A DNA stretch of 64,000 nucleotides from Sorangium aterium (GTDB taxonomy: Bacteria > Myxococcota_A > Polyangia > Polyangiales > Polyangiaceae). The notes under the pieces were generated by a model. The model worked only from the letters and a program-made list of their open reading frames with translations, did not search any database and was not told the origin of the DNA. Shown here in pieces: positions 2,939 to 18,635 of this stretch. The DNA is taken from contig NZ_JAQNDK010000002.1 in assembly GCF_028368935.1 (NCBI RefSeq), positions 1,984,001-2,048,000 on the forward strand, in the 5' to 3' direction. Position 1 is the first letter of the stretch. Each line of letters opens with the position of its first letter. A program made the position numbers and the translations under genes.

Positions 2939-4824
2939 CTCTGCCCGACGGAGGCGCGGTCCCGGATGGCCGGACCTCCGCGCCGCGTCGCGGCGGCGAG
3001 GGCTGGCTCGCGGCGCTTGCCGGCGTCGATCCGGCTCCGATGCGCGTCGAGCAGGTCGCTGCGCGTCAGGATCCCGAGGACCTTGCGGGGGGCCTGCCTG
3101 GACACGACAGGGAGCCTCCCCACGCCCTCGGTGACCATGTGATCGGCGGCTTCGCGAAGGGAGCTGTCCTCGAACACCACGGCGGGCGGCCGCCGGACCA
3201 GGTGGCGGATCGAGATGGTACCGGCCTGCTCGGTGAGCACGTCGCGCTGGGTGACCACACCGACGAGCTCCCCCCGGCCGTCCACGACCGGGAAGCCCTG
3301 GTGGCGGGAGCCCGCCGCCTGCGACAGCAGAAAGGCGCGGGCCGTCTCGACCGTATCTTCGGCGGCGAGCGTGACGGCGGGGCGCGAGGCGGCCTCGCCC
3401 GCGGTGATCTGCGCCAGGTGATCGGCCGCGTACTCGACCGTCACGCGCGCGCCGCGGCGGGCGATCTTCTCCGTCATGATGGAGTGCCGCATCAGCAGGC
3501 TGGAGACGAGGAAGGCCGCGCTGCAGCCGCCGAGCAGCGGCAGGAGCCCCATGGGCTGCCGGGTCGTCTCGAAGGCGAAGACGACGGACGCGAGGAGCGC
3601 CCGGGACGCGCCCGCGAAGATCGCCGCCATCCCGACGAGCCCGGCGACGCGAGGGTCCACGCCGAGCCCGGGGAGGAGCGCGGCCGCGGCCAGGCCGAGG
3701 ATCGCGCCGAGCCCGCCGCCGATGGTGAAGAGCGGCGCGAGCGTCCCGCCCGAGGTGCCGCTGCCGAGCGCGATCGACCAGGAGATGAACTTGAACAGCG
3801 AGAGCGACACGAGCGCGGCGAGCGCCAGGCGGCCGCTCAGGATGTCGTCGATGTTGCTGTACCCGACCCCCAGCGTCCGCGGCGCGAAGGCGCCCACGAC
3901 GCCGATCGCGACGGCGCCGATCGCCGGCCACCACATCCAGTGGAGCGGCAGCCGCTCGAACGCCTCCTCGATCGCGTAGATCGCGCGGGTCGCGCCCATC
4001 GCCGCGAGGCCGAGCGCCGCGCCGAGCACGATGTAGAAGGCGAGCGCGGGGCCGGTCGAGGGCGCCACGGCAGGCATCTCGAACGCGGGCGCGGTGTGGC
4101 CTGCGACCAGGCGGGCTGCGGTCGCCGTGGTCGCGGCGAGGGCGACGGGGATCACCGACCGCGGGCGGTACTCGAAGAGCAGGAGCTCGATCGCGAGCAG
4201 CACGGCCGCCACCGGGCTGCCGAAGGTCGCCGACATGCCCGCCGCCGCGCCCGCGGCGAGCAGCGTCTTGCGCTCGTCCGCGGTGATCCGCAGCAGCTGC
4301 CCGACCAGCGAGCCGAGCGCGCCGCCGGTCGCGATGATGGGGCCCTCCGCGCCGAACGGACCGCCGGTGCCGATGGCGATCGCCGCGGAGAGCGGCTTGA
4401 GCAACGTCATCCGCGGCGGGATGCGGCTCTGGTTGAACAGCACCTGCTCCATCGCCTCCGGGATCCCGTGGCCGCGGATCGCCTGGGAGCCGTAGCGCGC
4501 CATCACGCCGACGACGAGCGCGCCGGCGATCGGCACGACGAGCACGAGGAGGCCGAGGTTGTGCTCGGCGGGCGACGCGGGGGCGGCGGACAGCCGGCCG
4601 AAGAACGCGAGGTTCGTGATGATGGCGATGAGCGTGGTGAGCAGCTCCGCCGCGAGGAAGGCCACGCCGCCGAGCGCGATCGCGAGGCCGCTGACGAGGA
4701 CGACCCGCCGGTCGACGGCGGCGCTGGGCGGGGGGACGCGGAGGTCCTCGAGGGTGGGGCCCATCGAGGGGGCGACCGGGATGCTCTCGGTGACTGTTGG
4801 GGGTGGGGCGTTCAATCTGGACAA
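2935..4824 (-). CDS. CLC-family chloride channel/transporter with C-terminal CBS pair
   Basis: 629 residues: about 20 hydrophobic segments of the CLC fold up to ~residue 460, then two CBS domains (~470-530 and ~535-590) that in this family bind nucleotides and tune gating. CLC signatures seen are GHGIPEAME, GPFGAEGPI with the external gating glutamate, and GSGTSGG in the second half. The internal proton-glutamate position after helix H appears to be Leu (AIELLL where E. coli ClcA has IIEEM), suggesting channel-like behaviour rather than coupled H+/Cl- exchange. The TTG start is supported by GAGGAG 7 nt upstream and by tight coupling: the MarR stop is 1 nt away, so the two genes form an operon. 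Confidence 0.9.
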   Translation of the reverse strand: MSRLNAPPPTVTESIPVAPSMGPTLEDLRVPPPSAAVDRRVVLVSGLAIALGGVAFLAAELLTTLIAIITNLAFFGRLSAAPASPAEHNLGLLVLVVPIAGALVVGVMARYGSQAIRGHGIPEAMEQVLFNQSRIPPRMTLLKPLSAAIAIGTGGPFGAEGPIIATGGALGSLVGQLLRITADERKTLLAAGAAAGMSATFGSPVAAVLLAIELLLFEYRPRSVIPVALAATTATAARLVAGHTAPAFEMPAVAPSTGPALAFYIVLGAALGLAAMGATRAIYAIEEAFERLPLHWMWWPAIGAVAIGVVGAFAPRTLGVGYSNIDDILSGRLALAALVSLSLFKFISWSIALGSGTSGGTLAPLFTIGGGLGAILGLAAAALLPGLGVDPRVAGLVGMAAIFAGASRALLASVVFAFETTRQPMGLLPLLGGCSAAFLVSSLLMRHSIMTEKIARRGARVTVEYAADHLAQITAGEAASRPAVTLAAEDTVETARAFLLSQAAGSRHQGFPVVDGRGELVGVVTQRDVLTEQAGTISIRHLVRRPPAVVFEDSSLREAADHMVTEGVGRLPVVSRQAPRKVLGILTRSDLLDAHRSRIDAGKRREPALAAATRRGGPAIRDRASVGQS

Positions 4825-4825
4825 T

Positions 4826-5386
4826 TCAGCTCTCCTCGCGGTCGATGGCTTTGGCTTCGGCGGGGGTCTCCTCGCCTTCGAAGAACAGCGGGGGGGCCTC
4901 GTCGCCGGCGCCGAGCGCCCGGGCGAGGGTGGTGAGGCTCTGCGCGAGCCCGCTGCGCTCGTCGGCGGGCAGGCGGTCGACGGCGGCGACGAGCTCGGCC
5001 TGCGCGGTGCGGGGCGCGCGGCGGAGCAGCGCGCGGCCGGCAGGGGTGAGCGAGATCTCGGTCCGGCGCGCGTCCTCGGGCGAGGCGCGCCGGGTGACCA
5101 GCCCTCGCTCGGCGAGGCGCGTCACCACGACCGACACCGAGCTCTGGTGCGTCAGGGTGCGGTGCGCGAGCTCGGCGATCGAGGACGCCGCGGCCTGATC
5201 GAGCTGCTGCAGCACGAACAGCTGCGCGCTGCTCAGCCCGAGCTGCCGCTCGCACGCGCGCGACGAGACGCGCAGGCGCTGCACGATCGCGCGGATCGAA
5301 TCCATGACCCGCTGCGCGTCGGGCCCGCCGGGAGCCTGCCGCGCGGGGCTCTTCCGGCGCGCTGTCGAAGAACCATGGGATCCCAT
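4826..5386 (-). CDS. MarR-family transcriptional regulator
   Basis: 186 residues with a winged helix at ~45-125: SSAQLFVLQQLDQAAASSIA, then ELAHRTLTHQSSVSVVVTRL (recognition helix) and the wing ERGLVTRRASPEDARRTEI, followed by the classic LTPAGRALL. MarR proteins are dimeric ligand-responsive repressors that often control the adjoining transporter. Here the gene is the first of a two-gene operon with the CLC transporter, 1 nt apart, so control of that operon is the natural inference. The ligand cannot be predicted. The N-terminal ~25 residues are a basic extension and the C-terminus is acidic. It is divergent from glyQ. Confidence 0.93.
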   Translation of the reverse strand: MGSHGSSTARRKSPARQAPGGPDAQRVMDSIRAIVQRLRVSSRACERQLGLSSAQLFVLQQLDQAAASSIAELAHRTLTHQSSVSVVVTRLAERGLVTRRASPEDARRTEISLTPAGRALLRRAPRTAQAELVAAVDRLPADERSGLAQSLTTLARALGAGDEAPPLFFEGEETPAEAKAIDREES

Positions 5387-5640
5387 AGATTTGCGGGGAA
5401 CCTACGCCGCTCGCCGGTCAACCGCAAGCAGTCTGCGGTCCTCCGAGGGGCTTGGGCGGATCGAGGCGGACCGTCCTCGACGGGGTGATCGCGGGCGGCG
5501 GTGGAATGGCGGCGGGGCGCCGGCGCGGCGTCCGGCGCGCGGCGCGCCGGCCCGGGGGCAGCGCGCCGGGCGGACCGTGCGGGCGACGCTACGCGGGGCG
5601 TCGCCTGCGCGGGCGATCCAGGCTAAGAACCGGCCCTCCC

Positions 5641-6588
5641 ATGACCTTCCAAGACCTCATTCTCACCCTGCAGAAGTTCTGGGCCGATCGCGGCTGCCTC
5701 ATCGTGCAGCCGTACAACTCGGAGGTCGGCGCCGGCACCTTCAACCCGGCGACGTTCCTGCGCGCGCTCGGCCCCGAGCCCTGGAATGTGGCCTTCGTCG
5801 AGCCTTCCCGGCGGCCCGCGGACGGTCGTTACGGGGAGAACCCGAACCGTATGCAGCAGTTTCACCAGTTCCAGGTGATCCTCAAGCCGAGCCCGATCGA
5901 CATCCAGGACCTCTACCTGGAGTCGCTGCGGGCGATCGGCACGAACCCGCTCGATCACGACGTCCGGTTCCTCGAGGACGACTGGGAGTCGCCGACGCTC
6001 GGGGCGTGGGGGCTCGGCTGGCAGGTGTGGATCGACGGGCTCGAGATCTCGCAGTTCACCTACTTCCAGCAGATCGGCGGGATCGACTGCCGCCCCGTCT
6101 CCGGCGAGCTCACCTACGGGCTCGAGCGGATCGCGATGTACCTGCAGGACAAGGACAGCATCTACGACGTCGTCTACTCGGACCGCGGCGGGAAGATCGT
6201 GCGCTACGGGGACATCTACCAGCGCGCCGAGTGGGAGTGGTCGACCTACAACTTCGAGGAGGCCGACATCGCCGAGCACTTCGCGGCGTTCGATGTCTGC
6301 GAGGCCGAGGTGAAGCGGCTCCTGTACCGGGGCGCGGATCCGGCGGCGAAGGGGGCGGCGATCGATCCGAAGAAGGCGCTGGTGCTCCCGGCCTACGATT
6401 TCGTCGTGAAGGCGGCCCACCGCTTCAACGTCCTCGACGCGCGGGGCGCGATCAGCGTCACCGAGCGGCAGCGCTTCATCGGCCGGGTCCGCGCGCTCGC
6501 GCGGGCGGTCGCCGAGACGTACGTCGCGCAGCGCGAGGCGCTCGGCTACCCGCTCCTCGGCGAGCAGCAGGCGAAGGCGGCGGAGTAG
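5641..6588 (+). CDS. glyQ: Glycine--tRNA ligase alpha subunit
   Basis: 315 residues, collinear with bacterial GlyQ. It starts [18 protein letters not shown] and has [40 protein letters not shown], the motif-2 region and the motif-3-like [14 protein letters not shown]. The alpha chain carries the ATP and glycine site of the alpha2beta2 class II enzyme; the beta chain (GlyS) supplies tRNA recognition. The ATG at 5641 fits the family start exactly; in-frame extension to 5452 is low-complexity. No glyS follows: the next gene is pyrE on the other strand, so the beta subunit must be encoded elsewhere. Confidence 0.98.
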
Positions 6589-6652
6589 CGCACAGCAGGC
6601 CGAGGCGGCGGGCAGCGCGCCGTCGCCTCGGCCGGCCGCGCGTCGCGCGGCC

Positions 6653-7231
6653 TCAGCCGGCCGGGTTGTCCGGGATGAAGTCGTGGCGGGTGCAGATCGC
6701 GACGACCGGCAGCCCCGCCGCGCGGATCGCCTCCGCGCCGCCCTCGAGGCGGTCGACAAGGGCGATCACGCCGACCACCGAGGCGCCCGCGGTGCGCAGC
6801 TTCTCGACCGCCTTCAGCGTCGAGCCGCCCGTCGTGATCACGTCCTCGAGGATCGCGACGGGCATCCCGGGCACGAGGCCGCGATCGCCCTCGACGAGGC
6901 GCCGCGAGCCGTGGTCCTTGACCTCCTTGCGCACGTAGAGCGCGGGGAGGGGGCGGCCGCGCAGGAAGCTCGTGAGCGACACCGCGCTCGCGAGGGGGCA
7001 CCCCCCGAGCTCGACGCCGGCGACGGCCTCGCACCGCGGGAGCGCGTCGAGCGCCTCGAACATGAGCGAGCCGACGAGGGCGTGGCCCTCGGCGGTCAGC
7101 ACCGACTGCTTGCAGTCGATGAAGAAGTCGCTCTCCCGGCCGGACGCGAGGACGACGCGCTTCTGCTCGAACGAGCGCTCGCGCAGCAGCGCGACGAGCC
7201 GCTCCCGCTCCGAGGCGCCGGCGGCGCTCAC
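6653..7231 (-). CDS. pyrE: Orotate phosphoribosyltransferase
   Basis: 192 residues. The PRPP-binding signature VAILEDVITTGGST (residues ~127-140) is complete, and YVRKEVKDHG and LGGCPLASAVS correspond to catalytic-loop and substrate regions of PyrE. It converts orotate plus PRPP to OMP in pyrimidine synthesis. The GTG start at 7231 overlaps the stop of the upstream bactofilin gene by 4 nt (GTGA), so it is translationally coupled to a cytoskeletal operon, an odd partner for a housekeeping enzyme. No other pyr gene is nearby. Confidence 0.95.
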   Translation of the reverse strand: MSAAGASERERLVALLRERSFEQKRVVLASGRESDFFIDCKQSVLTAEGHALVGSLMFEALDALPRCEAVAGVELGGCPLASAVSLTSFLRGRPLPALYVRKEVKDHGSRRLVEGDRGLVPGMPVAILEDVITTGGSTLKAVEKLRTAGASVVGVIALVDRLEGGAEAIRAAGLPVVAICTRHDFIPDNPAG

Positions 7232-7935
7232 CGGCCGCCCCGCTTGCGCAGCGAGGCCTTCGCGGCGCCCTTCCGGAGCGCGGGGACCACGGGCGGCGGC
7301 GGCCCGCCGGTGCTCTCGGCCGCATCGGGCTCGTCACCCTCACCGGCGGCCGAGGCCGACAGGTCGGCCTCCTCGTCGTCGTGAACGGCTGCGAGGCGCG
7401 GCTCCGGCGCAGGGGCGGGCCTCGCCTCGACGACCGGGGCGGGGCGCGCCGCCGGGGCGGGGCGCGCGGGGGCAGGCGCGGCGCGCGGCGCAGGCCGGGC
7501 GGGCGGCGCAGGCGCGCGCTGCTCCGCCGGCGCACGCGCCGGCCGCGCCGCCGCGGCGCGCGGCGCAGGTGCAGCGGCGGCGGCCCGCGCCGGGGCAGGG
7601 GCGGGGGCCGCGGCGAGCGGCGCGCCGGTGGTGACGTTGCCGCGCACCAGCGCGCCGGCGTGGATGCCGATCTGCGGCGCGCCGAGGTCGCCGACGACGC
7701 GCGCGCCGGGCTCGAGGATCACGGCCTCGTCGCCGGAGATGTTCCCGGCGACGGCGCCGCGGACGACAACGCGCCGCCCGCGGACGTCGCTCTGGATGAG
7801 CGCGCCCTCGCCGATGGTCACGTCGCCGGTCATGACGACGCTCCCCTCGACGCGGCCGAGGATCTCGAGATCCCCGTCGCCCTGCACGTTGCCGCGGATG
7901 GCCGTCGTCGGCCCGATCGAGGACTGGGCGGCCAT
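7228..7935 (-). CDS. Bactofilin with long Pro/Ala-rich C-terminal tail (BacP-like)
   Basis: 235 residues. The bactofilin beta-helix core spans ~15-110, with hydrophobic/Gly turns such as IRGNVQGDGDLEILGRVEGS and VRGAVAGNISGDEAVI. It is followed by a ~115-residue tail of Ala/Pro repeats and an RKR-rich end (residues ~110-235). Bactofilins polymerise without nucleotide into cytoplasmic filaments; long-tailed forms such as Myxococcus BacP recruit partners through the tail. The gene is third of three consecutive bactofilins, 3 nt after the previous stop, and overlaps pyrE by 4 nt. The specific partner is unknown. Confidence 0.92.
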   Translation of the reverse strand: MAAQSSIGPTTAIRGNVQGDGDLEILGRVEGSVVMTGDVTIGEGALIQSDVRGRRVVVRGAVAGNISGDEAVILEPGARVVGDLGAPQIGIHAGALVRGNVTTGAPLAAAPAPAPARAAAAAPAPRAAAARPARAPAEQRAPAPPARPAPRAAPAPARPAPAARPAPVVEARPAPAPEPRLAAVHDDEEADLSASAAGEGDEPDAAESTGGPPPPVVPALRKGAAKASLRKRGGR

Positions 7936-7938
7936 CGG

Positions 7939-8301
7939 CTACACGTCCATGTCGACGTTGCCCTTGAACGAGGCTCCGTCCGCGATGGTCAGCCGCGACG
8001 CCTTCACGTCGCCGACGAGGCGACCGCCGGCGAGGAGATCGACGCGATCGGCCGCCGTGACGTTGCCGGTCACGTTGCCGCCCACCTGGAGCGACGCCGC
8101 CCCGATGTCCGCTTCGACCAGCGCCCCTGCGTCGATGGTGAGAGGCCCCTCGACGGTGAGCTTTCCGCGCACCGTGCCGGCGACGATCACCTCCTCGTCG
8201 GAGGTGATCTCGCCCTCGATCGTGAGCCCGTTTCCGATGATCGTACCCGCCACGTTCGTGCTCCTCGCCGCGCCCTCGCGGCGCGATTCTTCGTCCGTCA
8301 A
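7939..8301 (-). CDS. Bactofilin, compact form
   Basis: 120 residues, nearly all bactofilin core: residues ~15-118 with repeating short beta-strands (VAGTIIGNGLTIEGEITSDE, VIVAGTVRGKLTVEGPLTI, VGGNVTGNVTAADRVDLLAG) ending in KASRLTIADGASFKGNVDMDV. N- and C-terminal tails are minimal, the architecture of Myxococcus BacN/BacO-type filament proteins. It lies 6 nt downstream of another bactofilin and 3 nt upstream of the tailed one, so co-assembly is likely by analogy with BacNOP. Confidence 0.93.
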   Translation of the reverse strand: MTDEESRREGAARSTNVAGTIIGNGLTIEGEITSDEEVIVAGTVRGKLTVEGPLTIDAGALVEADIGAASLQVGGNVTGNVTAADRVDLLAGGRLVGDVKASRLTIADGASFKGNVDMDV

Positions 8302-8307
8302 CGCGCG

Positions 8308-8736
8308 CTACCGCCCTGCCGGTTCACGCCGGGGGGCCTGCCCGCGACCGCCGGTCGTCCGCTCCGAGAGCTCGGCCGGGAGGTCGAACTCCGCCTCGAT
8401 GCGGCCGGCGAACGCCGCGCCTTCCTCGAGGATCACCTCGCTGCCGCCCACGTTTCCGGCGTACTGCGCGGTCGCCCGGATCGTGACGGGGCCGCGCGAC
8501 GCCACGTCCCCCGTGAGCTGGCCGGAGACGACGAGCGAGCTCGCCTCGACGTCCCCCGTGACCGACGCCCCGTCCTCGATCTCCAGGTCGCCAGCCAGCT
8601 GGATGTTCCCCTCGACGCTCCCCTCGACCCGGAGCGAGCCGTCGCCATGGACACGCCCGCGGATGCGGGCGCCCCGTCCGATGAGCGATTCGGCAGCGTC
8701 CGATTCGCTGCGCGTCGTTGTCGAGCCTCGGGCCAT
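8308..8736 (-). CDS. Bactofilin, first gene of the operon
   Basis: 142 residues. The core runs ~18-118 (LIGRGARIRGRVHGDGSLRV, VEGSVEGNIQLAGDLEIEDG, SGQLTGDVASRGPVTI) and a short basic tail ends GRGQAPRREPAGR. The ATG at 8736 matches the family start, and an in-frame read-through upstream is composed of G/C repeats rather than coding sequence. A 618-nt region with a very large inverted repeat lies upstream, so the operon promoter must be there or between the repeat and the gene. Confidence 0.92.
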   Translation of the reverse strand: MARGSTTTRSESDAAESLIGRGARIRGRVHGDGSLRVEGSVEGNIQLAGDLEIEDGASVTGDVEASSLVVSGQLTGDVASRGPVTIRATAQYAGNVGGSEVILEEGAAFAGRIEAEFDLPAELSERTTGGRGQAPRREPAGR

Positions 8737-9354
8737 TCTCGTCTCCTGTGCGCGGAGGGAGCCGCGCGAGCCGGGGCGCGCACCAGACGCCCGGCTCGTC
8801 CGCTGGCGCTGGGCGAACTGGATCGCCCGGGGCCGCGGCGGCGCGGACGCTACTCCAAGCGGCTGCGCCTCGCAACCGGCGGGCGGGCTCGGTGGCGGGG
8901 GTGCTCCCCCCATGGACTGACTGCAGCGGAGCCCTCGGGGGGAGGGGGCGTCGCGCGGGGGGCGAGGGGGGCCCTCCCACGAACTCGCGCCTTTTGGTGG
9001 CAATGGCCTGCTGTACGGAGCTGGCGAGTCCGTGAGGACTGGCTGCGATGCGGGCCGGCGCTCGGGTTCGTAGGGCCCTCCCCCTCGCCCCCCGCGCGAC
9101 ACCCCCTCCCCCCGAGGGCTCTCTCCGGCGGGATGCGCGGCGCGAGGGGAACGGGGATCGATGCGCGGCACCGGAGCGTGCGGGCGTGCGGGGTGGGCGC
9201 TTCCTGCAGGGGTGGCTCGGGTGATACGGTCTCTCTTGACTGGGCTTTCCTTGCTCGCGACGCCCGTTGTGGCCCTGGCGGCGAACCGACTCGGATGGCT
9301 CGGCGCGCGTCGCCCGTGAGGCGAGCGCAGACCAACCCAACCCGGGGGTTCCTC
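8737..9354. other. 618-nt region between bactofilin operon and monooxygenase
   Basis: No gene is supported. Its main content is a G-tract-rich inverted repeat (8930-9120). A TTGACT at 9236-9241 could be a -35 element for the rightward monooxygenase but has no convincing -10. GGGGG at 9343-9348 lies just upstream of the monooxygenase ATG. Confidence 0.55.
8930..9120. repeat. Large imperfect inverted repeat, possible MITE-like element
   Basis: The left arm 8930-8978 begins AGCCCTCGGGGGGAGGGGGC. The right arm 9073-9120 is nearly its exact reverse complement, ending CCTCCCCCCGAGGGCT. Arms are about 48 nt with only a few mismatches. The 94-nt centre continues to pair imperfectly (CGAACTCGCGCC against CGAACCCGAGCGCC in reverse complement) and contains a small hairpin around GGCGAGTCCGTGAGGACTGGC. 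The arms contain many G-runs of 4-6, so G-quadruplexes are possible on either strand. It has no ORF of its own. Confidence 0.8.
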
Positions 9355-10749
9355 ATGCGGAAGATAGCTATCGTGGGGTCTGGACAGGCCGGCCTGCTCG
9401 CGGCGCACGGCCTGGTGAAGGCCGGCTACGAGGTGACGCTCTACTCGGATCGCACGCCCGAGCAGTGGCTCAACGAGTCGAAGCCGACCGGGACCGCGGC
9501 GCGCTTCGACGTGGCGCTCGCGTTCGAGCGCGAGCTCGGCCTGGCCTTCTGGGAAGACGCCGCGCCCCGAGGCCACGGGGCCCAGCTGACCGCGTGCGCC
9601 GCGCCGGGCAACCGCCTCCTGACGCTGGCGGGCCGCCTGGAGCAGCACTTCTTCGCGATCGATCTCCGGCTCCAGAGCCACCGGTGGATGCTCGAGCTCG
9701 AGCGGCGGGGCGGCAAGATCGTGATCGAGCCCGTCACGATCGCGCGGCTCGACACGATCGCCGCGGAGAACGACCTCACCGTGGTCGCCGCGGGGCGCGG
9801 CGAGCTGTGCAACCTGTTCGAGCGAGACCCCGCGCGCAACGTCCACACGGAGGCGCAGCGCAACGTCGTCATGATGTGCGTGACCGGCCCGAAGCTCGGG
9901 TTCGACGGCATCCCCATGCTGCCGGTCAAGTTCAACCTGTTCGCGGGCATCGGGGAGGCGTTCTGGGTGCCCTACCACCACAAGGACGTGGGACCGAGCT
10001 GGAACTGTCTCGTCGAGGCGGTGCCCGGAGGGCCGCTCGACAGGTTCCAGGGCGCGAAGTCAGGCGAGGAGATCATCGCGATCGCGAAGGGACTGGTGAA
10101 GGAGCTCATCCCCTGGGACTACCAGTGGTTCAAGGGAGCCGAGCTGTCGGACAAACACGGATGGCAGAACGGGCGGGTCGTCCCCGCGGTGCGCAAGCCC
10201 GTCGGACGGCTGCCCTCCGGCCGGATCGTGACGCCGCTGGGTGACACGGCGATGTCGATCGATCCGATCGGCGGCCAGGGCGCCAACAGCGGCAACAAGA
10301 TGGCGCGCAACCTGGTCGAGTGCATCGTGCAGCACGGCGAGCGCCCGTTCGACGCCGAGTGGATGACGCGCACCTTCGATCGCTTCTACGCGCGGCACGG
10401 CGGGCCCACCGACCGGTTCAACAACATCCTGCTCGCCGGGGTGACGCCCACGATGGCCCACTTCCTCATGGCGCAGTACGGCAGCGACGGGCGGGCGGAC
10501 AACACGAGCGGGCAGCAGGCGCTCGCCAACGCCTTCGTGAACAACTTCAACGATCCGGCGCGGCTGACGGCGGTCCTCGAGGACGTCGGGCGGGTGCGCG
10601 CCTTCATCCGGCAGACGACCGGGAAGCCCTGGCCGCTCGCGCTCGCAGCAGGGGGCGTGGGCGTCGGCATCGCGCAGGTGCGGCAGCGCATCGGGCTCCC
10701 GCCGGGGCATCCGGCAGCGCCGGTGCACGCCGGCGGAGCGCTCGCGTAG
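9355..10749 (+). CDS. Styrene/indole monooxygenase-like FAD-dependent oxygenase (StyA family)
   Basis: 464 residues. It starts with a Rossmann FAD motif, KIAIVGSGQAGLLAAHGLVK, then YSDRTPEQWLN, characteristic of the styrene monooxygenase oxygenase component. The second FAD motif is near GDTAMSIDPIGGQGANSGNK (about residues 300-320). StyA-type enzymes use reduced FAD, delivered by a separate StyB reductase, to epoxidise styrene, indole or related alkenes. No reductase or aromatic-pathway gene lies in the window, so the substrate is open; indole or a secondary metabolite is as likely as styrene. GGGGG lies 7 nt before the ATG. The C-terminus has an Ala/Gly/Pro tail. Confidence 0.82.
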   Translation: MRKIAIVGSGQAGLLAAHGLVKAGYEVTLYSDRTPEQWLNESKPTGTAARFDVALAFERELGLAFWEDAAPRGHGAQLTACAAPGNRLLTLAGRLEQHFFAIDLRLQSHRWMLELERRGGKIVIEPVTIARLDTIAAENDLTVVAAGRGELCNLFERDPARNVHTEAQRNVVMMCVTGPKLGFDGIPMLPVKFNLFAGIGEAFWVPYHHKDVGPSWNCLVEAVPGGPLDRFQGAKSGEEIIAIAKGLVKELIPWDYQWFKGAELSDKHGWQNGRVVPAVRKPVGRLPSGRIVTPLGDTAMSIDPIGGQGANSGNKMARNLVECIVQHGERPFDAEWMTRTFDRFYARHGGPTDRFNNILLAGVTPTMAHFLMAQYGSDGRADNTSGQQALANAFVNNFNDPARLTAVLEDVGRVRAFIRQTTGKPWPLALAAGGVGVGIAQVRQRIGLPPGHPAAPVHAGGALA

Positions 10750-10789
10750 CGCTCGCGGTGCGCCTCGCCGGGCGCCCGCTTTCCTCTGT

Positions 10790-11015
10790 CGTAGCGGTAC
10801 GCCGTCGCCCCCCGACGCGCACGTCGTCGACGCGCTGGACGCGCCCGCGCGCGTGGTCCGCGACACGGGCCGGCCCATCCCGTCGTGCGCGTACGCCGTC
10901 CGCGCGCCCCGCGCGTCCGTCTCCGCGATCACGTTGTGCGGCGCGTCGTGCTCAACCGCGACCAGCGCATCGAGCGCGTTGTCCTCGCGCCGTTCGGCAT
11001 CACCCGTTCCACGCT
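10790..11015 (-). pseudogene. Scrambled Rhs/YD-repeat remnant
   Basis: Reading the minus strand in changing frames gives three short blocks that match the intact Rhs protein at 14406-18635: ERVMPNGART (parent ERVMPDGART), then EHDAPHNVIAETDARGARTA (parent EHDAQHDVIAETDARGARTA) with the following YAHDGMGRPVSRT, then GRVQRVDDVRVGG (parent GRVERIDDARWGT). The blocks are joined without intervening sequence, out of frame, and in a different order from the parent. This is debris from recombination between YD repeats, with no possible product. Confidence 0.8.
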
Positions 11016-11053
11016 CCGGCCGCGCATCTGTCGGTCGGGCGGAATCCGTGCCA

Positions 11054-11578
11054 TCAGATAAAGGGCGAGGGGTCCTTGCCTTCCGCTACATGCTGGACGA
11101 AGTAGGTTTTCTGAAACGAGGCCTCGAGCAACCGTGCATGCACCAAGAAGTCGACTGGGGGCACGCCTGGCTCTCGAGCCGCAATGACTTGCGTCGATGT
11201 CGCGAGCCCGAAGCGCTCGAGCTCCCGGACTGGTCCGTCCGGCAGCGCCTCGCAGTGAGCGAGCGCCTCGCTTGCGCGCTTGATCGCGCCAGCCGCCGCT
11301 GCTGCCGCAACACGTGCGCGGAGCTCGGAAGGGTCGATCGATCCCGAACTGCCTGACGCGATCATGGCGACGCGCGCCCGGTCGGCGTAGATCGCCTCGA
11401 GGCAGTGCGTGTATGTGAGCATATCCAGGTGCAGCGGAGAGTCGCCAGGCAGCAGGCAATACGAGGACAGTAGATCAATGAGACCCTGATGGACGAGTAT
11501 TCTCGTGAATCGGTCGGTGATCGAGTCAAGGTGTTGAAACGCCTCTTGCCCGTTCGCGATGACGTCAGGTTTGTCCAT
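11054..11578 (-). CDS. Uncharacterised 174-residue protein in the Rhs locus, candidate immunity protein
   Basis: Soluble, mostly helical protein with no signal peptide or membrane segment. I do not recognise the family. Features are an amphipathic N-terminal half (HLDSITDRFTRILVHQGLID), an Ala-rich stretch (ARVAAAAAAGAIKRASEALA) and an aromatic C-terminus. The ATG at 11578 lies 4 nt after the stop of the preceding small ORF, so they are probably co-transcribed. Its place just after a possible toxin-tip fragment and between Rhs remnants suggests an immunity role, which is inference from position only. An in-frame extension upstream overlaps the preceding gene and is not preferred. Confidence 0.55.
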   Translation of the reverse strand: MDKPDVIANGQEAFQHLDSITDRFTRILVHQGLIDLLSSYCLLPGDSPLHLDMLTYTHCLEAIYADRARVAMIASGSSGSIDPSELRARVAAAAAAGAIKRASEALAHCEALPDGPVRELERFGLATSTQVIAAREPGVPPVDFLVHARLLEASFQKTYFVQHVAEGKDPSPFI

Positions 11579-11582
11579 GGGA

Positions 11583-11873
11583 TCAGAACGTCCTTGTCCC
11601 CGGCGGGCCAGGAAAGTTAGGCGGCCCCATGAGGAGCCGCGACGGTGATGTGCTCCGGTCAAAGGTGATTTGTTTCGGATCCGTGTTGATGAGCCCTGGC
11701 GGGCCGACATGAATCGTTCTGTCGGGTGCAATCACCAGCTCGCGCCCACCGCCCTCGCCTTTAAAGGCGAATGAGCCGTCGACGCAATTCATTCGCGCTG
11801 CGCCCCATGATTGACCGTGCTGGTTCGCAGCGCCGTGGATCTGCTTCACCATCCCCTGGTCCATGTCGGCCAT
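11583..11873 (-). CDS. Small protein, possible remnant of a third Rhs toxin tip
   Basis: 96 residues starting MADMDQGMVKQIHGAANQHG, then a mid-section GRELVIAPDRTIHVGPPGLI and a Pro-rich end. No family recognised. Upstream, a different frame reads DSDGILVAERGAQVGADPFD followed by AIRG. One extra G in the run near 11883 would fuse the two into a continuous polypeptide. That suggests a tip domain broken by a single-base indel, either natural or an assembly error. The translated product as it stands would begin at ATG 11873, which has no strong ribosome binding site. Confidence 0.4.
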   Translation of the reverse strand: MADMDQGMVKQIHGAANQHGQSWGAARMNCVDGSFAFKGEGGGRELVIAPDRTIHVGPPGLINTDPKQITFDRSTSPSRLLMGPPNFPGPPGTRTF

Positions 11874-11965
11874 CTCCCCCGGATCGCGTCGAATGGATCG
11901 GCCCCGACCTGCGCCCCGCGCTCTGCAACAAGGATCCCGTCTGAATCGTGGAGCGCTCACCTTTC

Positions 11966-12331
11966 TCAAGCTGAGCCCCGAGCTGACACTCTTTCCTCGG
12001 TCAACACGTCATTGTCGACCTTGTAAACGATGATGTTCTCCCCGTCTTCCCCTCGTGCGTGGAAATATCCTGAAATTTCGACCTTCAGGAGTGCAATCTC
12101 ATGGATCGTGTCGCAGAGCAATGTCAGGCCTTCCTCTGTGATATCTGCGCCATAGAACAGATACCGTGTCCAGTTGATGGGCTCATCGCTCCAGCACCAG
12201 CCCTTCATGTAGAGCCGCTCTTTGTCGTGGCTCTGCCACCGCTCGCGAAGAGCGGTGATGGTGGATACAATCTTCGGGAAGTCGCTGGGTGATGCTTCCA
12301 GCCAGCCACGGACCGAGTAAAAATACGACAT
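11966..12331 (-). CDS. Candidate immunity protein for the displaced Rhs tip
   Basis: 121 residues, acidic, with no signal peptide or membrane segment. It starts MSYFYSVRGWLEASPSDFPK, has an aromatic middle (YMKGWCWSDEPINWTRYLFY) and ends in alternating strands and acidic turns. Lower GC than the surroundings. It lies 56 nt downstream of the truncated Rhs ORF carrying a nuclease-like tip, the standard place for the cognate immunity gene of a polymorphic toxin. The ATG at 12331 begins the recognisable domain; the longer in-frame ORF upstream overlaps the Rhs tip. Family not named with certainty. Confidence 0.65.
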   Translation of the reverse strand: MSYFYSVRGWLEASPSDFPKIVSTITALRERWQSHDKERLYMKGWCWSDEPINWTRYLFYGADITEEGLTLLCDTIHEIALLKVEISGYFHARGEDGENIIVYKVDNDVLTEERVSARGSA

Positions 12332-12387
12332 GGTGCGCCTGAGGGCTCGGTTGTTGATTCGTGTCAGTCCTGTTCGAGCTTTGAGTG

Positions 12388-13925
12388 TCAAGAGGAGCAC
12401 TTCCCCTGCGTCGGTGGGGATAGGCCGATGCGTACTTCGGCGCCCTTGTCTTCGATGTAGCTCCGCACTTCTGGGTGCGGTTCCTCTTTGAACCAATAGA
12501 CGGGCTTTTTGCCGTGGTCGTCGGCGAGGCGGACCGTTTCCTTGATCTGGTTTCTCGTGCTCTTGCTGAGGAAGTTCTTCGGCTTGTCGACCGCGGTCGG
12601 CGAGTCTTTCGCCTGGATGAGTTCTGCGGATGTTACCGAGTCGATTTCGCGCCCCTCAATAATCTGAGATGTGCCTCCGCTGATTCTTCTGACATCTTCC
12701 TCCCACGCCTTTCCTGCCTCTCCGAGGACCTTGCCCTTGGCAAGGCCAAGGGGATCGAACTGCGTGGTCGGGCTGCCATCAAACGCGAACAAGTGTAGGC
12801 CTCCCGCTGCTCCAAGCGGGTCAGGGCTGCACCACCCGCCGATCTCCGGATCGAAGAACCGGAACCGCGTGTAGCAGAGCCCCATCTCGGCATCGGCGTA
12901 CTGCCCGAGCAGCCTGAACGGCGACTCCACCGTGGTCCTGTGGTTGAGGACGCTGATCGGATCGCGCTGCTCCTCCAAGACCTCGCCCCAGGCCGAGTGC
13001 GCGGCCGCCCACGCCACGAGCCCGCGCGGATCGAGCAGCTCCTTGGGCGTGCCGAGGTGGTCGTTGACATAGGTGAGCACGCTCCCGTCCTGCTGCTGCA
13101 GGAGCGGCACGAAGGTCCCCGGCGCATGGACGAACGTTCGTGCCCCCCGCTCCCTGCCGATGTCGGCCGCCAGCACATCGCCATCCCAGACGAACTCCAC
13201 CACGCGCGGCAGATCGACCGTGGCGGTGCCGATCACCTCCTTGCGCACCCGCCTGCCAAAGGCGTCATAGGTCATGACGACGCGGGCGCCATCGGGCAGG
13301 CGCACTTCGCGCAGCCGGTCGCGGCAGTCCCAGACGTAGCGGGTCATGTCCTGCTCGGTCGCGGCGCCGCTGCCGGGGTGGTTCTCTCGGTAGTGTGCCA
13401 GGTCCACCTTGGCGGTCCGCCGCCCGCGCGCGTCGATTTCGTAGGCCGCCGTCTCGGTCTTGCGCAGCACGCCGCCGCGCTCGATCTGCCACGACGGCTG
13501 CATCCAGTCCTGTGATGACCGCGATGCCTCCGCGAGCAGCCCTAAGTTGCTGGGCTCCGCGAGCTCCGCGAGCATGCGCGTGATCGAGCCGGCCGGATCG
13601 TAGGCGTACTGCACCGTCCTGTCGCCTTGCCGCTCGCACACGACGCGCCCGAACGCGTCGCGCTCGAACCACGTCTCGATGCGCTGCCCGTTCTCCTCCT
13701 CCAGCACGGCGCCGACCAGCCGCCCCATCCGGTCGCGCGCGTAGCCGATCACCCCATCCGGCATCTCGTCGCCGATCAGGTTGCCCGAGCGGTCATAGAA
13801 CAAGTGCGCCACGTCTTGTCCGTCGCGATCTCGATGCGCCCGAGCTGCGGTATCCGTAGCGCAGCCTGCCGCGTCGTCGTCCGCCCGAGCGCGTCGGTCT
13901 GCGATACGGGTCGTCCGGTCCTGTC
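12388..13925 (-). pseudogene. N-terminally truncated Rhs protein with a distinct nuclease-like tip (displaced orphan tip)
   Basis: In-frame from about 13815 it is closely similar to the last third of the intact Rhs: LFYDRSGNLIGDE, TFVPLLQQQDGSVLTYVNDH, HLGTPKELLDP, CYTRFRFFDPEIGGWCSPDP. Above 13815 the match continues out of frame (GRPVSQTDALGRTTT joined to LRYGYRSSG), a deletion and frameshift scar, so no complete Rhs can be made. After FDPLGLA comes a different ~117-residue tip, not shared with the intact Rhs, with GREIDSVTSAELIQAKDS resembling a PD-(D/E)XK nuclease core. The tip has lower GC. Such orphan tips are thought to be stored behind the active rhs gene and swapped in by recombination in the core. 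An N-terminally shorter product could still be made from internal starts. Confidence 0.82.
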
Positions 13926-14103
13926 GTGCGTGGAAGTCGCGCCGATGCCTCCTCAACACATCCCAGCATGCGTCACCAAACTCCCGGCATGCATCACCAG
14001 GTGATCGCCTCATAAGCTGGTGCAGGAGTAGCGACTTCTTTGGCATGGCGGGGGTGTGGAGCCGTCGCTGGTCGGCGAATCGCAGGCCGCGTACATGCTC
14101 TCC
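13926..14103. other. Junction between orphan tip and immunity gene
   Basis: 178 nt with no gene. A fortuitous in-frame ATG at 14046 opens the Rhs frame, but the sequence from there to about 13925 shows no Rhs similarity and no ribosome binding site. Confidence 0.5.
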
Positions 14104-14409
14104 TCACCCGGTCCAGCCGCTTAAATAGTCATCAATTGAGATGCTCACAATCTCGTCGCCGCCAATCTCTTGATAGTCTCCGATGCTATCAAAATCGGCG
14201 TCGCCCTCGACGATTACGCGAATCGCGTGGCCTGCATGGTCGGCAAGGAATTTCCATATCACCCGGTTGAGCTTGTTGTTGAGCGAGTTTGCTGGGTCGC
14301 TCTCCTGGCCTATGTGGAATCGATCGACCCTGTCGCCCTTATATATCGCCTTTCCGAGCCACAGGGCGACACTGCACTCGACGCATGTGAGATACGCGTA
14401 ACGGCTCAT
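14104..14409 (-). CDS. Immunity protein of the intact Rhs toxin (candidate)
   Basis: 101 residues, acidic, cytoplasmic by appearance. The N-terminus has a C-x2-C pair (LTCVECSVALWLGKAIYKGD), the middle FHIGQESDPANSLNNKLNRV, the end EIGGDEIVSISIDDYLSGW. Its ATG overlaps the Rhs stop codon by 4 nt (ATGA), the tight coupling expected of a toxin-immunity pair, so that immunity is made with every round of toxin translation. GC is lower than in the Rhs core, as is the case for the adjoining toxin tip. I cannot name the immunity family; the role rests on position, size and charge. Confidence 0.72.
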   Translation of the reverse strand: MSRYAYLTCVECSVALWLGKAIYKGDRVDRFHIGQESDPANSLNNKLNRVIWKFLADHAGHAIRVIVEGDADFDSIGDYQEIGGDEIVSISIDDYLSGWTG

Positions 14410-17400
14410 TGTCCACCGTTGCAGCTTAATGGTCCACTGTACAAAGTGTTCCCGTCTGTGTCTGTAATAACGAGCTTGGTGCCGGAGTACTTGGCCAGGT
14501 CGTCTGAGGTTCGTGAGCCTCGAAAGCGGGCGACCATTCTGCTTGCGTCGTCGGGGCTTGTGCTACGTTTGACCTGAACAAATACTTCTCCGCCGCTGCC
14601 GGCTTGAGCTTTTGCAGCATGGCTCACTTGCTTGTTGAAAGCTCCTTGCGAGCTCCCGCCTATGCACTTCACCTCTCGGCGCCCAACAATATTGCCGTGC
14701 GGATCCTCGAACGTGACGTCAGCTCCTGCACCGCCAGAGCCAGCAACCCTTGCGGTCGAGCCTGTAGGGCCGGTCCCTAGGATGTTCTCGGCATTTTCCT
14801 GAGTCAGCGGGAACTCTGGATTGCTGTCGGCAATAAGTGCATTGACATCGCTTGGCGTATAGCTGCTTAAGCCGAAAGGATCGATGCTGCTGGTTGGACT
14901 ACCGTCAAGTCGGAATAGTCCCGGGCCGCCACGTATGCCCAGCGGATCCGGGCTGCACCACCCCCCGATCTCCGGATCGAAGAACCGGAAGCGCGTATAG
15001 CAGAGCCCCGTCTCCTCGTCGGCGTACTGCCCCAGGAGCCTGAACGGCGACTCCACGGTGGTCCTGTGGTTGAGCACGCTGATCGGATCGCGCCACACCT
15101 CGGTGACCTTGCCCCAGGCGGAGTGCGCCGCCGCCCACGCCACGAGGCCCTGCGGGTCGAGCAGCTCCTTGGGCGCGCCGAGGTGATCGTTGACGTACGT
15201 GAGCACGCGCCCGTCCTGCTGCTGGAGCAGCGGCACGAACGTCCCCGGCGCATGCACGAAGGTCCGCGCGCCTCGCTCGCTGTCCACGTCCGCCGCCAGC
15301 ACATCCCCATCCCACACGAACTCCACCACGCGCGGCGGGTCGGCCGCGGCAGTGCCGATCACCTCCTTGCGTACGCGCCGCCCGAAGGCGTCATAGGTCA
15401 TGACGACTCGAGCGCCATCCGGCAGGCGCACCTCGCGCAGCCGGTCGCGGCAGTCCCAGGTGTACCGGGTCAGCTCCTCCTCGGTCACGGCGCCGCCGTT
15501 CGGGTGGCTCTCTCGGTAGCGCGCGAGCTCCACCTTGGCGGTGCGCCGCCCGCGCGCGTCGACCTCGTACGCCGCTGTCTCGGTCCGGCGGAGCACGCCG
15601 CCGCGCTCGATCTGCCACGACGGCTGCATCCAGTCCTGCGATGAGCGCGATGCGTCGGCGAGCAGCCCGACGCTGCTGCGCTCGGCGAGCTCCGCGAGCA
15701 TGCCCGTGATCGAGCCGGCCGGGTCGTACGTGAACACCTCGCGCACATGCCCGCGCTGCGCCGACAGCAATCGGTCGGCGCGGTCGTAACGGTACGCCGT
15801 CGTCCCCCAGCGCGCGTCATCGATGCGCTCGACGCGCCCGCGTGCGTCGTAGAGCCACTGCCGTGCGACGAGCGCCTTGGGTGCCCCGGGAGCCGGCGCC
15901 GTCGCGCGCTGGTCGATCAGCCGGTCCATCGCGTCGTAGCTGCTCCGCACCGCGATCGCCGCCGCCTCGGCCGCCGTATCTCCGTCGCCCTCGCGCAGCG
16001 TGCGGCTCGTCCGCTGGACCTCGCGTCCCAGCGCGTCGCGCTCGATCCGCAAGCGGTGCCCGTCGTGCTCGATCGCGCTCAGCGCATCGAGCGCGTCGTA
16101 CGCATACCGCGTCCTCGCCCCGTCCGGCATCACGCGCTCGGTGCGCCGCCCACGCGCGTCGTAGGCGTACCGCACCGCCTCGTCGCCCTGCCGCTCGCAC
16201 ACAACGCGCCCGAACCTGTCGCGCTCGAACCACGTCTCGATGCGCTGCCCGCTCGACTCCTCGAGCACGGCCCCGAGCAGCCGCCCCATCCGGTCGCGCG
16301 CGTAGCCGATCGCCCCATCGGGCGTCTCGTCGGCCGTGAGGTTCCCCGCGCGATCGTAGAACAGGTCGCGCCACGTCCCGTCCGCCGCCTGCTCGACGCG
16401 CCCGAGCCGCCCCGAGCTGCGGTAGTCGTAGCGCAGCGTGCGCCCATCGAACGTGTCCTCCTGCGCCACCCGGCCCGCGGCGTCGTAGTGAAAGACGTAC
16501 CTCTCGCCCTTCGGGTTGGTGACGGCGCGGAGCCGCTCCTTGTGCGTGTATGCGAACCTCCACACGCCCCCGCCCGGCTCGACGATCTGGGCCAGCACGC
16601 CCGTGCCCTCGTACGCGAGCTGCGTCGTCTGCCCCAGCGCATCGACCAGGCGCGCCGGGTTGCCCATGCGATCATAAGTCGCGACGGTCCTCGTCCCGTC
16701 GGGCCGCTCCACGCGCACCGGCCGCCCCATCGGGTCGTACGCCACGCGCGTGGTCCGCCCCAGCGCGTCGGTCCGCGACATGGGCCGGCCCATCGCGTCG
16801 TACGCGTACGCCGTCCGCGCGCCGCGCGCGTCCGTCTCCGCGATCACGTCGTGCTGCGCGTCGTGCTCATGGCCGAGCAGCAAGCCCTCGTGCCCACCCC
16901 CGTGCCCGTACACGCCGGTGACCCGCCCGCGCTCGTCGCGCGCGAACGAGGTCGCCTCGCCGGTCGGCAGCAGCACCGCGCTCACCCCGCCGCGCGCGTC
17001 GCGTACCACCTGCGTGACGAGCCCCTCGGGGCTGATCTCGCGCACCACGAGATCGCCATCGTGCTCCCACCGCGTCTCGTTGCCGAGCGCGTCCACCTCG
17101 CGGATCGCGTTCCCGCGCGCGTCGTACCAGCGCTGCATCCCCTCGCCCGCGCCGTTCGCCTCCGCGACGAGGAGCGCGTCCTCGTCGTACGCCCGCTCCC
17201 ACAGCGCCGTCCCGTCGGGCAGCGCCGCGCGCGTCACAAGGCCGTCGGCGTTCCAGCTGTACACCCGCGGCTCCACGCCTCGGACCTCGGTCGTCTGCCC
17301 CTGCGCGTCGCGCCGGAGCTCCACCTCGTGCAACCCGTCCCGCCCGCCGGTCTTCCTGCACCGGTGCCCGTGGTGGTCCTCGTAGGCGTACCAGAACCGC

Positions 17401-18635
17401 TCGCCGTTCTTCAGCGTCGTCGCGGTCATCCGGTGCCGGACGTCGACCTCGTACGCCTCCACGCCGCCCACCGCGTCGACCGCCGCGATCAGGCACCCCG
17501 CGCGATCGTAACGGTAGTCCACCCACTGCCCAAGCCGCCGCTCCGCCCACAGCTCCAGGCGCGTGATCCGCCCGTCCTTCCACCGCACCTTGAGCTCTCG
17601 CCCCGCCGTGTCGACGACCCGGACGAGCCGCTCGCCTTCGTAGTGCAGCCGCACCTCGTTGCCGTGGACATCCCGGATCGCGCGCAGCAGCGCCCTCGCC
17701 GAGCCGTCCTCCGCCGCGAACAGCCGCACCTGCCGCGACCGGAGCTCCACCACCCGGTACTCCCGCGCTCCCTCTCGATGCAGCTCCAGCCGCTCGCGCC
17801 GGTGGAACGCGCTCTCCCCGGGCTCCACCTTCTCGAACCAGATCCACCGCCCCTCGCCGTCGCGCAGCGCGAGGACCTGCTCGCCCTCCTCGATCCATTG
17901 CTCGTACGAGAATGCCCAGCCAGGCCCCAGCGCCGCGTCTCGCTCCCCGTGACGCGACGAGCGATAATGCCGCGCCCACACGAGCGGGATCATCCCCGGG
18001 ACCGAGAGGTCCGTCGCCGTGTCGACCACCGCGCCGTCCGTGGCGTCGACCGGGTGCCCCTCGGTCGTGCACTGCTCCACCGGCGGCGACGACGACTTGC
18101 CCGCCTTCGCCCCCTTGTGGCTGCGCCCGCCGCCGCCCCCACCGCCGCCTCCCGGCGCGCTCGGCCCGCCGCCTCCCGGCGCCCCCGCGCCGCGGCCTCC
18201 TCCGCCGCCGCCCGCGCCCCCGGCGCCGCCCGCCCCGCTCGCCGCCGTCCCGGCGCCGGCGGTGACCGACTTGTTCATCTGCCCCATGCTGCCGGTGATC
18301 CCGGCCATTCCAAGCTCGACGAGCACGTTCGGCGCGCCGAGCCACGGGAAGCAGGGGCCGCCCGTGTTGAGGCTCAGCACCTCTCTCATGGTGCCTGGCT
18401 CGTTGCCGTGACACGCCTTCATGCACCCGCCGACCGTCAGGATCTTCCTACCTTCGATCGTCGTCCGCATCGGCGCGTCGATGATCCCTTCGGCCACCGT
18501 GCCCATCGTCGGATAGGGGATCGGAAGAGGGCTCGGCGCGGCCGGCGTGGTGCACACGCTCACCGCCATGCCAGTCATCTGGTGGCCAGAGCCCTCGTGC
18601 ACGGTATCCAGACCCAGCGCCGTGACCTTGCTCAT
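14406..18635 (-). CDS. Rhs polymorphic toxin with PAAR-like N-terminus and nuclease-like C-terminal tip
   Basis: 1409 residues. About 1-120 is a DUF4150/PAAR-like domain (GGCMKACHGNEPG, GPCFPWLGAPNVLVELGM) that would sit on a type VI secretion spike. About 125-190 is a Gly-rich linker. About 195-270 is a DUF6531-like segment (GHPVDATDGAVVDTATDLSV). YD/Rhs repeats then fill to ~1180 and build the hollow cocoon. The core ends with YTRFRFFDPEIGGWCSPDPL and IDPFGL, where autoproteolysis releases the tip. The 153-residue tip has GADVTF (Asp ~1306) and RREVK (Glu ~1321, Lys ~1323), a PD-(D/E)XK nuclease arrangement. ATG 18635 begins the PAAR-like domain. No T6SS genes are in the window. The immunity gene follows with a 4-nt overlap. 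Confidence 0.93.
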   Translation of the reverse strand: MSKVTALGLDTVHEGSGHQMTGMAVSVCTTPAAPSPLPIPYPTMGTVAEGIIDAPMRTTIEGRKILTVGGCMKACHGNEPGTMREVLSLNTGGPCFPWLGAPNVLVELGMAGITGSMGQMNKSVTAGAGTAASGAGGAGGAGGGGGGRGAGAPGGGGPSAPGGGGGGGGGRSHKGAKAGKSSSPPVEQCTTEGHPVDATDGAVVDTATDLSVPGMIPLVWARHYRSSRHGERDAALGPGWAFSYEQWIEEGEQVLALRDGEGRWIWFEKVEPGESAFHRRERLELHREGAREYRVVELRSRQVRLFAAEDGSARALLRAIRDVHGNEVRLHYEGERLVRVVDTAGRELKVRWKDGRITRLELWAERRLGQWVDYRYDRAGCLIAAVDAVGGVEAYEVDVRHRMTATTLKNGERFWYAYEDHHGHRCRKTGGRDGLHEVELRRDAQGQTTEVRGVEPRVYSWNADGLVTRAALPDGTALWERAYDEDALLVAEANGAGEGMQRWYDARGNAIREVDALGNETRWEHDGDLVVREISPEGLVTQVVRDARGGVSAVLLPTGEATSFARDERGRVTGVYGHGGGHEGLLLGHEHDAQHDVIAETDARGARTAYAYDAMGRPMSRTDALGRTTRVAYDPMGRPVRVERPDGTRTVATYDRMGNPARLVDALGQTTQLAYEGTGVLAQIVEPGGGVWRFAYTHKERLRAVTNPKGERYVFHYDAAGRVAQEDTFDGRTLRYDYRSSGRLGRVEQAADGTWRDLFYDRAGNLTADETPDGAIGYARDRMGRLLGAVLEESSGQRIETWFERDRFGRVVCERQGDEAVRYAYDARGRRTERVMPDGARTRYAYDALDALSAIEHDGHRLRIERDALGREVQRTSRTLREGDGDTAAEAAAIAVRSSYDAMDRLIDQRATAPAPGAPKALVARQWLYDARGRVERIDDARWGTTAYRYDRADRLLSAQRGHVREVFTYDPAGSITGMLAELAERSSVGLLADASRSSQDWMQPSWQIERGGVLRRTETAAYEVDARGRRTAKVELARYRESHPNGGAVTEEELTRYTWDCRDRLREVRLPDGARVVMTYDAFGRRVRKEVIGTAAADPPRVVEFVWDGDVLAADVDSERGARTFVHAPGTFVPLLQQQDGRVLTYVNDHLGAPKELLDPQGLVAWAAAHSAWGKVTEVWRDPISVLNHRTTVESPFRLLGQYADEETGLCYTRFRFFDPEIGGWCSPDPLGIRGGPGLFRLDGSPTSSIDPFGLSSYTPSDVNALIADSNPEFPLTQENAENILGTGPTGSTARVAGSGGAGADVTFEDPHGNIVGRREVKCIGGSSQGAFNKQVSHAAKAQAGSGGEVFVQVKRSTSPDDASRMVARFRGSRTSDDLAKYSGTKLVITDTDGNTLYSGPLSCNGGQ

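Follow-up and report, generated by a model that had tools for sequence, protein, structure and literature searches.

A PAAR-type Rhs locus of Sorangium aterium with probable displaced tip and immunity modules

In Salmonella LT2, a main rhs gene and the downstream rhs-CT-orphan share a core block of 522 bp at 95% identity, and recombination between the two has been documented (Koskiniemi et al., 2014, PMC3967940). No paper on a comparable locus in Sorangium, Polyangiales or myxobacteria was found in the open-licence literature, judged by title or start of abstract and with subscription papers outside the search, and the word "orphan" has 0 occurrences in the myxobacteria review PMC10433427. Here we analyzed a stretch of 64,000 nucleotides (C2:1984001-2048000, the window) of the 13.47 Mb genome of Sorangium aterium, which is assembled in 7 contigs. 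Its minus strand carries an Rhs locus in the order main rhs gene with tip1, imm1, orphan core with tip2, imm2, tip3 remnant, imm3 and core scar (Table 1). An original prediction, made from the letters of the window, had likened this order to the tip storage known from Rhs and contact-dependent inhibition (CDI) systems, and the likeness to the Salmonella locus and to CDI/Rhs orphans holds (PMC3967940, PMC3150448).

With a probability of roughly 0.8, we consider that the main gene had its tip replaced repeatedly by incoming cassettes made of a core 3' end, a tip and an immunity gene, older pairs being pushed downstream, with tip2 as a possible reserve and the array as an immunity bank. What carries this reading is the gene content of the locus, the homology blocks between its cores, the identities of its modules and the different tips found on related cores of congeners. 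The three presumed pairs were assigned by co-occurrence, as 3/3 of them recur as adjacent tip/immunity pairs in other genomes. Sequence and relatives together support the interpretation first proposed, namely one complete Rhs effector accompanied by displaced tip/immunity modules.

Main rhs gene and tip1

The main gene has the features of a PAAR-type Rhs, that is, an N-terminal PAAR-like domain, RHS/YD repeats, a core ending at DPxGL and a variable tip, with DPFGL as the junction between core and tip1. Pfam families above their cut-offs were Tox-PAAR-like (PF13665, residues 42-148, 70.6 bits, cut-off 31), DUF6531 (215-287), 15 RHS-repeat stretches (PF05593, 176.3 bits, cut-off 22) and the RHS protein domain, and NCBIfam placed the RHS-associated core (TIGR03696) at residues 1194-1278 (55.4 bits, cut-off 32.5). 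The start of imm1 overlaps the rhs stop by 4 nucleotides, so that the predicted complete PAAR-like gene with an immunity gene behind it on the same strand was recovered. Searches with profile hidden Markov models, a check that the prediction had proposed, gave Tox-REase-3 for tip2 and left tip1/imm1 and tip3/imm3 below every Pfam and NCBIfam cut-off.

Nucleases of the PD-(D/E)xK type carry a D...ExK motif on a restriction-endonuclease fold. A candidate motif of this kind (D51, E66 and K68) is kept in 2/2 sequences, tip1 and its relative in G419, a genome of the same family. The single-sequence structure model of tip1 reached a pLDDT (predicted local distance difference test) of 66.3, the other four models staying <37. 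Foldseek with this model returned nothing at E<=0.001 and no restriction-type nuclease among the matches listed, and the best VIA match (Z 5.8, a zinc-transporter domain) is uninformative. The model of imm1 (pLDDT 41) was not used.

Relatives of imm1 were detected in 3/183 genomes of the order, this one included, with 48-50% identity in G419 and G457. As for tip1, it was found in 2/183, again counting this genome, and the second, in G419, was reached only via the imm1 search. In that genome, a tip1 relative (57% over 149 residues) sits on a core of only 48% identity and has the imm1 relative (48.5%) behind it. The imm1 relative of G457 is solitary (C1, 2698-3006, L091): the 10 kb examined there contain neither a tip1 nor an Rhs core match. 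A tip1 search of twenty relatives matched this genome only, and neither six tip1 peptide patterns nor two patterns from the tip1 alignment found a relative in a collection of 84,980 species. Twelve weak tip1 matches (E 0.0015-0.01) among 377 genomes of the phylum were judged to be chance, their realignment being either unreproduced or short and composition-driven in appearance. PDB sequences held no match for tip1 and one for imm1, rejected at E 0.25, and viral contigs contained no relative of imm1 or imm2.

Orphan core and tip2

The orphan core aligned with the main core in three BLASTN blocks: 13602-12812 with 15728-14938 (791 bp, 87.7% identity, ungapped, 990 bits), 13869-13598 with 16441-16159 (83.4%, 300 bits) and 13930-13870 with 16804-16745 (78.7%, 49.1 bits). 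From the block coordinates, the orphan core has two internal deletions of about 303 and about 435 nucleotides (145 codons), the second of which keeps the frame of the orphan open reading frame (ORF). This ORF, that of tip2, has no stop from 14046 onward across the core remnant, and the core is in frame with tip2 from about 13800. Nucleotide similarity ends about 55 nucleotides before the DPxGL junction, and the two copies are unrelated beyond that point. This alignment, the breakpoint check suggested at the outset, therefore agrees with the predicted close similarity over about 1 kb and adds the two deletions to it. Within the 791-bp block the longest exact run is 47 bp, and the differences distribute over the codon positions as 17/17/63, so that core divergence arose mostly under coding constraint. 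The orphan core is similar to the cores L078, L080 and L082 of congeners further toward the tip, to 12743-12776 (36-69 bp past 12812). Since it thus resembles the cores of other species over a longer distance than it resembles the main core, the last stretch of the latter seems to have been brought with tip1, and may have been replaced together with it.

By Pfam, the orphan ORF contains RHS, RHS repeat and Tox-REase-3 only, with no PAAR or N-terminal delivery part. A truncated core with another tip and an immunity gene downstream on the same strand, the make-up of an orphan rhs-CT/rhsI module, is what tip2 and imm2 present, in agreement with the predicted second module. The Tox-REase-3 match of tip2 covers positions 9-102 of the 102 of PF15647 (122.1 bits, cut-off 25, E 1.3e-35). 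Compared with the motifs [KR]ExD and ExQxK given for the family (PMC3482391), REID is present, and so is QAK, with the E three residues before the Q rather than two. The tips had also been at risk of proving unrelated to any toxin or nuclease fold, and this was not borne out, as tip2 belongs to a curated nuclease-fold family and tip3 is found on a congener core (see below). No Pfam family matched imm2 at E<=1.

Among 72,556 plasmid records, tip2 with an imm2 relative occurred in 2, both from Streptomyces, where the tip2 relatives (55-56% identical) end genes of 7.0-7.1 kb annotated as restriction endonuclease fold toxin and the adjoining imm2 relatives (30-32%) lie directly downstream. The plasmids held no relative of tip1, tip3 or imm3. 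Two further sets of matches were left unused: nine designed or ankyrin-type PDB proteins for tip2 (best E 1.2e-5, about 35 residues) and, besides its own, one marginal match for imm2 in the 377 phylum genomes (E 5.5e-4, 46 residues, with an internal stop).

These data bear on the idea that the array goes back to a whole rhs gene duplicated in tandem, the copies then diverging and decaying, with no tip capture. In a tree of 19 core ends, main and orphan cores stand together at 83/82, inside a nine-row group at 100/100; some rows cover only part of the segment, and G005:C643 (L093) is a distant core. This grouping would fit a duplication, as would the two cores of the congener G003, which are 99.2% identical. 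However, the two copies in the window combine cores of 88% identity with unrelated tips and immunity genes, the change falling near the tip junction, and tip2 is absent from the other 182 of the 183 order genomes searched, yet present in Streptomyces. Duplication of a core was perhaps one step of the process and leaves the tips unexplained, for which reason we regard duplication as the sole origin of the array as very unlikely.

Tip3, core scar and congener loci

The third pair had been only a candidate in the original prediction. In the congener G005, a core 83% identical to that of the window (residues 195-1279) continues in frame via DPLGL into a relative of tip3, on a contig that ends before the PAAR part. 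Over the last 98 residues of tip3 this tip shows 89.8% identity, and a homologue of imm3 (75.9%) follows immediately. The third pair is therefore real, because tip3 and imm3 recur side by side behind a long Rhs core. Outside the core, DNA similarity between the window and G005 is restricted to 11046-11881, where it begins within the tip and ends shortly beyond the stop of imm3. Both orphan tips thus occur on full-length proteins in relatives, tip3 on the long core of G005 and tip2 in the Streptomyces genes. In the order, imm3 was found in 4/183 genomes, namely this one, G005, G003 and, as a weak match (E 7.5e-4), G370. In G003, C1 2664-2981 (L092) holds a fragment of tip3 and fragments of imm3 in two frames with stops, with no core match in 6 kb.

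Pairwise comparison with G005 by NG86 gave nonsynonymous (dN) and synonymous (dS) divergences of 0.056 and 0.782 for tip3 (dN/dS 0.07), 0.153 and 0.622 for imm3 (0.25) and 0.092 and 0.337 for the core (0.27); NG86 is approximate in GC-rich DNA, and YN00 put the core dS far higher, at 1.22. With dN far below dS, neutral drift can have covered only a small part of the path of tip3 since its split from G005, which suggests that the remnant was either displaced recently or is still constrained.

In the window tip3 has no core. Downstream of imm3, blocks along the minus strand match the main core at 16155-16058, 16869-16744 and 15850-15783 (165, 75.2 and 54.5 bits). In 17 control segments of 3.2 kb from other parts of the window, matches to the main core did not exceed 41.9 bits. 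As the order of the blocks differs from that of the core, the scar is scrambled, as had been predicted. Because it lies downstream of imm3, the scar is what is left of another module rather than the core that tip3 lacks.

We also measured the GC content, which is 0.731 in the core, 0.559, 0.579 and 0.616 in tips 1, 2 and 3, 0.542, 0.538 and 0.621 in imm1, imm2 and imm3, and 0.724 over the window. The lower GC of tips and immunity genes noted originally is therefore real. As a sign of arrival time it says little, because tip3 has a GC of 0.64 while still on its core in G005; for the same reason we dropped the use of GC as a clock, in which the rise from tip1 to tip3 would be ageing toward the GC of the genome, tip3/imm3 having 0.64 while on the G005 core.

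The congener G004 has the same locus. On the downstream side, positions 3051-10792 of the window match it at 89-90%, as far as a styrene-monooxygenase-like neighbour that the two have in common (Pfam Smoa_sbd). Its rhs core is 87% identical to that of the window, and the upstream VWA gene 71-91%. The rhs and VWA genes of G004 are separated by about 8 kb (L083, L095) that have no match to the window. The single tip of G004 belongs to the Tse2 ADP-ribosyltransferase family (PF18648, 32.8 bits, cut-off 26.6) and is followed by a downstream ORF. Between the neighbour and the core lies a core scar of its own (89 bp at 83%), and the core copy of G004 carries a TAG. G003 carries two cores in tandem, one main and one truncated (C1, 2188-9887, L081), which are 99.2% identical over 2,571 bp; the truncated core matches from residue 397, hence it has no PAAR part, and each core has a different tip and a downstream ORF. 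Across seven related cores from the three congeners (L078, L079, L080, two in L081, L082 and L083), no tip matched tip1 or tip2 at E<=1e-3. The proposed comparison of tips across relatives therefore returned the same locus with one other tip in G004, as well as tip3/imm3 on a G005 core. An intact, independent rhs gene in the place of the orphan was not seen, since G004, the sole congener in which the same locus was seen, has one rhs.

Other remnants were noted on the way. In G005 (C347, 7617-9714, L079), a broken rhs has core residues 12-60 abutting 751-1279, with about 690 residues seemingly lost, a stop after the joint and an interrupted frame; it retains a tip that, by eye, is like that of L082. 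The main Rhs protein has 45 related stretches in this genome, several of which have long open frames, and at C2:157022 there is a short N-terminal remnant of it that spans residues 16-61 and contains a TAG. G003:10172000-10178000 (L094) shares no block >100 bp with the window.

It is possible, if in our view not the better bet, that the downstream part of the locus is decaying debris, fossils of past tip exchanges with no present function; such a history has the same origin and differs only in the present role. The orphan core with its two deletions and out-of-frame start, the loss of the core and N-terminal part of tip3 and the scrambled scar all fit debris, and so do the broken tip3/imm3 of G003 and the one tip and scar of G004. 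On the other hand, tip2, imm2, the tip3 remnant and imm3 have kept open frames, with all three immunity frames of the locus intact, and a relative of imm1 has been retained alone in G457. The low dN/dS of tip3 and imm3 relative to G005 points the same way, although, being pairwise, it averages both lineages and would be the same if displacement were recent.

Table 1. Features of the Rhs locus, in positions of the window
Feature	Position	Strand	Basis and remarks
Main rhs: PAAR-like domain, DUF6531, RHS repeats, RHS-associated core, tip1	14406..18635	-	ORF open to 18701; likely ATG at 18635
tip1, unclassified C-terminal domain after DPFGL, 154 residues	14406..14870	-	No Pfam/NCBIfam family above cut-off; G419 relative beside imm1 relative
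imm1, presumed immunity gene of tip1	14104..14409	-	ATGA overlap with rhs; relatives in G419, G457
Orphan core remnant, without PAAR, two internal deletions	12812..13930	-	BLASTN and tblastn blocks
tip2, Tox-REase-3 restriction-endonuclease-fold toxin, with DPLGL junction	12388..12765	-	Pfam PF15647; Streptomyces relatives
imm2, presumed immunity gene of tip2	11966..12331	-	Relatives directly downstream of tip2 relatives on two Streptomyces plasmids
tip3 remnant: C-terminal 98 residues; core and N-terminal part lost	11583..11881	-	ORF listed from 11969; G005 relative
imm3, presumed immunity gene of tip3, frame intact	11054..11578	-	G005 homologue directly downstream of tip3
Scrambled Rhs core scar, with pieces from three regions of the core and without a recognisable tip	10788..11025	-	BLASTN blocks and chance control

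Tip replacement, delivery and comparison with known systems

In the sequence of events that we propose, each incoming cassette would have swapped the tip of the main gene and shifted the older tip/immunity pair downstream. The product of the main gene would deliver tip1, a putative toxin, probably by a type VI secretion system (T6SS) encoded elsewhere in the genome, and imm1, if expressed, would protect the cell by neutralizing it. One crossover within the 791 bp would set tip2/imm2 in place of tip1/imm1 on the intact core. Because the shared block, 791 bp at 87.7%, is poorer than that of Salmonella, tip2 could perhaps be recruited in this way. As tip3 has no core, tip3/imm3 would no longer be recruitable by core recombination, the immunity gene still being intact, and the final module would have been reduced to a core scar. 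The array would then act as an immunity bank with tip2 alone as a possible reserve weapon, which is the sense in which a storage function for tip swapping may apply.

T6SS delivery of the main Rhs in trans is plausible from its PAAR-like domain. The original prediction had described the locus as lying without T6SS genes nearby. This holds for the ORFs of the window that were scanned: among the Pfam matches at E<=1e-5 of 38 other ORFs (37/41 predicted ORFs plus one more, the remaining 4/41 being genes of the Rhs locus), no T6SS family occurred by name, and 12/38 had no family at all. Sheath genes are present elsewhere in the genome, with five TssC/VipB matches over the cut-off; the one on the same contig stands at C2:1604779, about 380 kb before the window. 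TssC/VipB was positive in 6/6 genomes of the genus.

Several observations weigh against the replacement scheme or against parts of it. The 87.7% identity of main and orphan cores, with its longest exact run of 47 bp, is below the documented 95%. The dS between them (0.37) lies within the range of the main core against congener cores (0.30-0.48 in 6 comparisons, G004 left out), so that no recent exchange is visible, and their grouping at 83/82 is weak. Both tip1 and tip2 are rare in the order, and the fold of tip1 is unsettled. Finally, Rhs proteins of Myxococcus are described that are large, probably surface-located and delivered without a T6SS (PMC10433427), but these are far larger than the main Rhs here and have signal sequences.

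Orphan tip/immunity pairs might also act inside the cell as toxin-antitoxin modules. This has been reported for a Salmonella orphan rhs (PMC7043789), and the frame of tip2, open through its core remnant, would allow it; tip3, however, lacks its N-terminal part. We consider a toxin-antitoxin role very unlikely. Within the replacement scheme, a more specific version is put forward only tentatively and we hold it to be doubtful. In it, tip3/imm3 would be seen in three states within the genus, on a core in G005, core-less here and broken in G003. As an immunity gene has been kept after its tip became unusable, the array would mainly be an inherited archive of earlier weapons, giving protection from neighbours that still carry them, any reserve being secondary, and tip1/imm1 and tip3/imm3 would be two undescribed families.

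The main-plus-orphan arrangement is already known; what is new is the comparative series and the two unclassified tip/immunity pairs, tip1/imm1 and tip3/imm3, which fall below all Pfam and NCBIfam cut-offs. An arrangement worked out in enterobacteria is hereby extended to a genus with very large genomes, which offers comparative material on the displacement and decay of tips: two species bear different tips at the same locus, a third (G003) has main and orphan cores that are nearly identical, and one tip is present in three stages. For tip swapping, the 99.2% core pair of G003 offers a better natural test than the window does.

As in Salmonella LT2 (PMC3967940), a full-length rhs with its immunity gene is followed by a core fragment with another tip and its own immunity gene, the two share a core block and a DPxGL junction, and the orphan tip is found on full-length genes in relatives. 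Unlike in Salmonella, the block is longer and less identical (791 bp at 87.7% versus 522 bp at 95%), there is a second orphan, without a core, which is followed by a further core scar, and recombination, demonstrated there, is inferred here. Arrays of displaced tip/immunity pairs downstream of a main gene are likewise described for orphan cdiA-CT/cdiI and rhs modules, some of which keep main-gene homology before the junction and some of which, like tip3 here, have none (PMC3150448); CDI arrays use a VENN junction and two-partner secretion, whereas the main gene here is a PAAR-type Rhs. With the polymorphic toxin systems surveyed in PMC3482391, the locus shares Tox-REase-3, the family of tip2, and the order of toxin before immunity gene. 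In the table of that survey, Tox-REase-3 comes from beta/gamma-proteobacteria and firmicutes, its partners being Imm-SUKH or Imm7, whereas imm2 matches no Pfam family at E<=1. The authors of the survey read trailing immunity genes as remnants of past tip replacements, as we do here.

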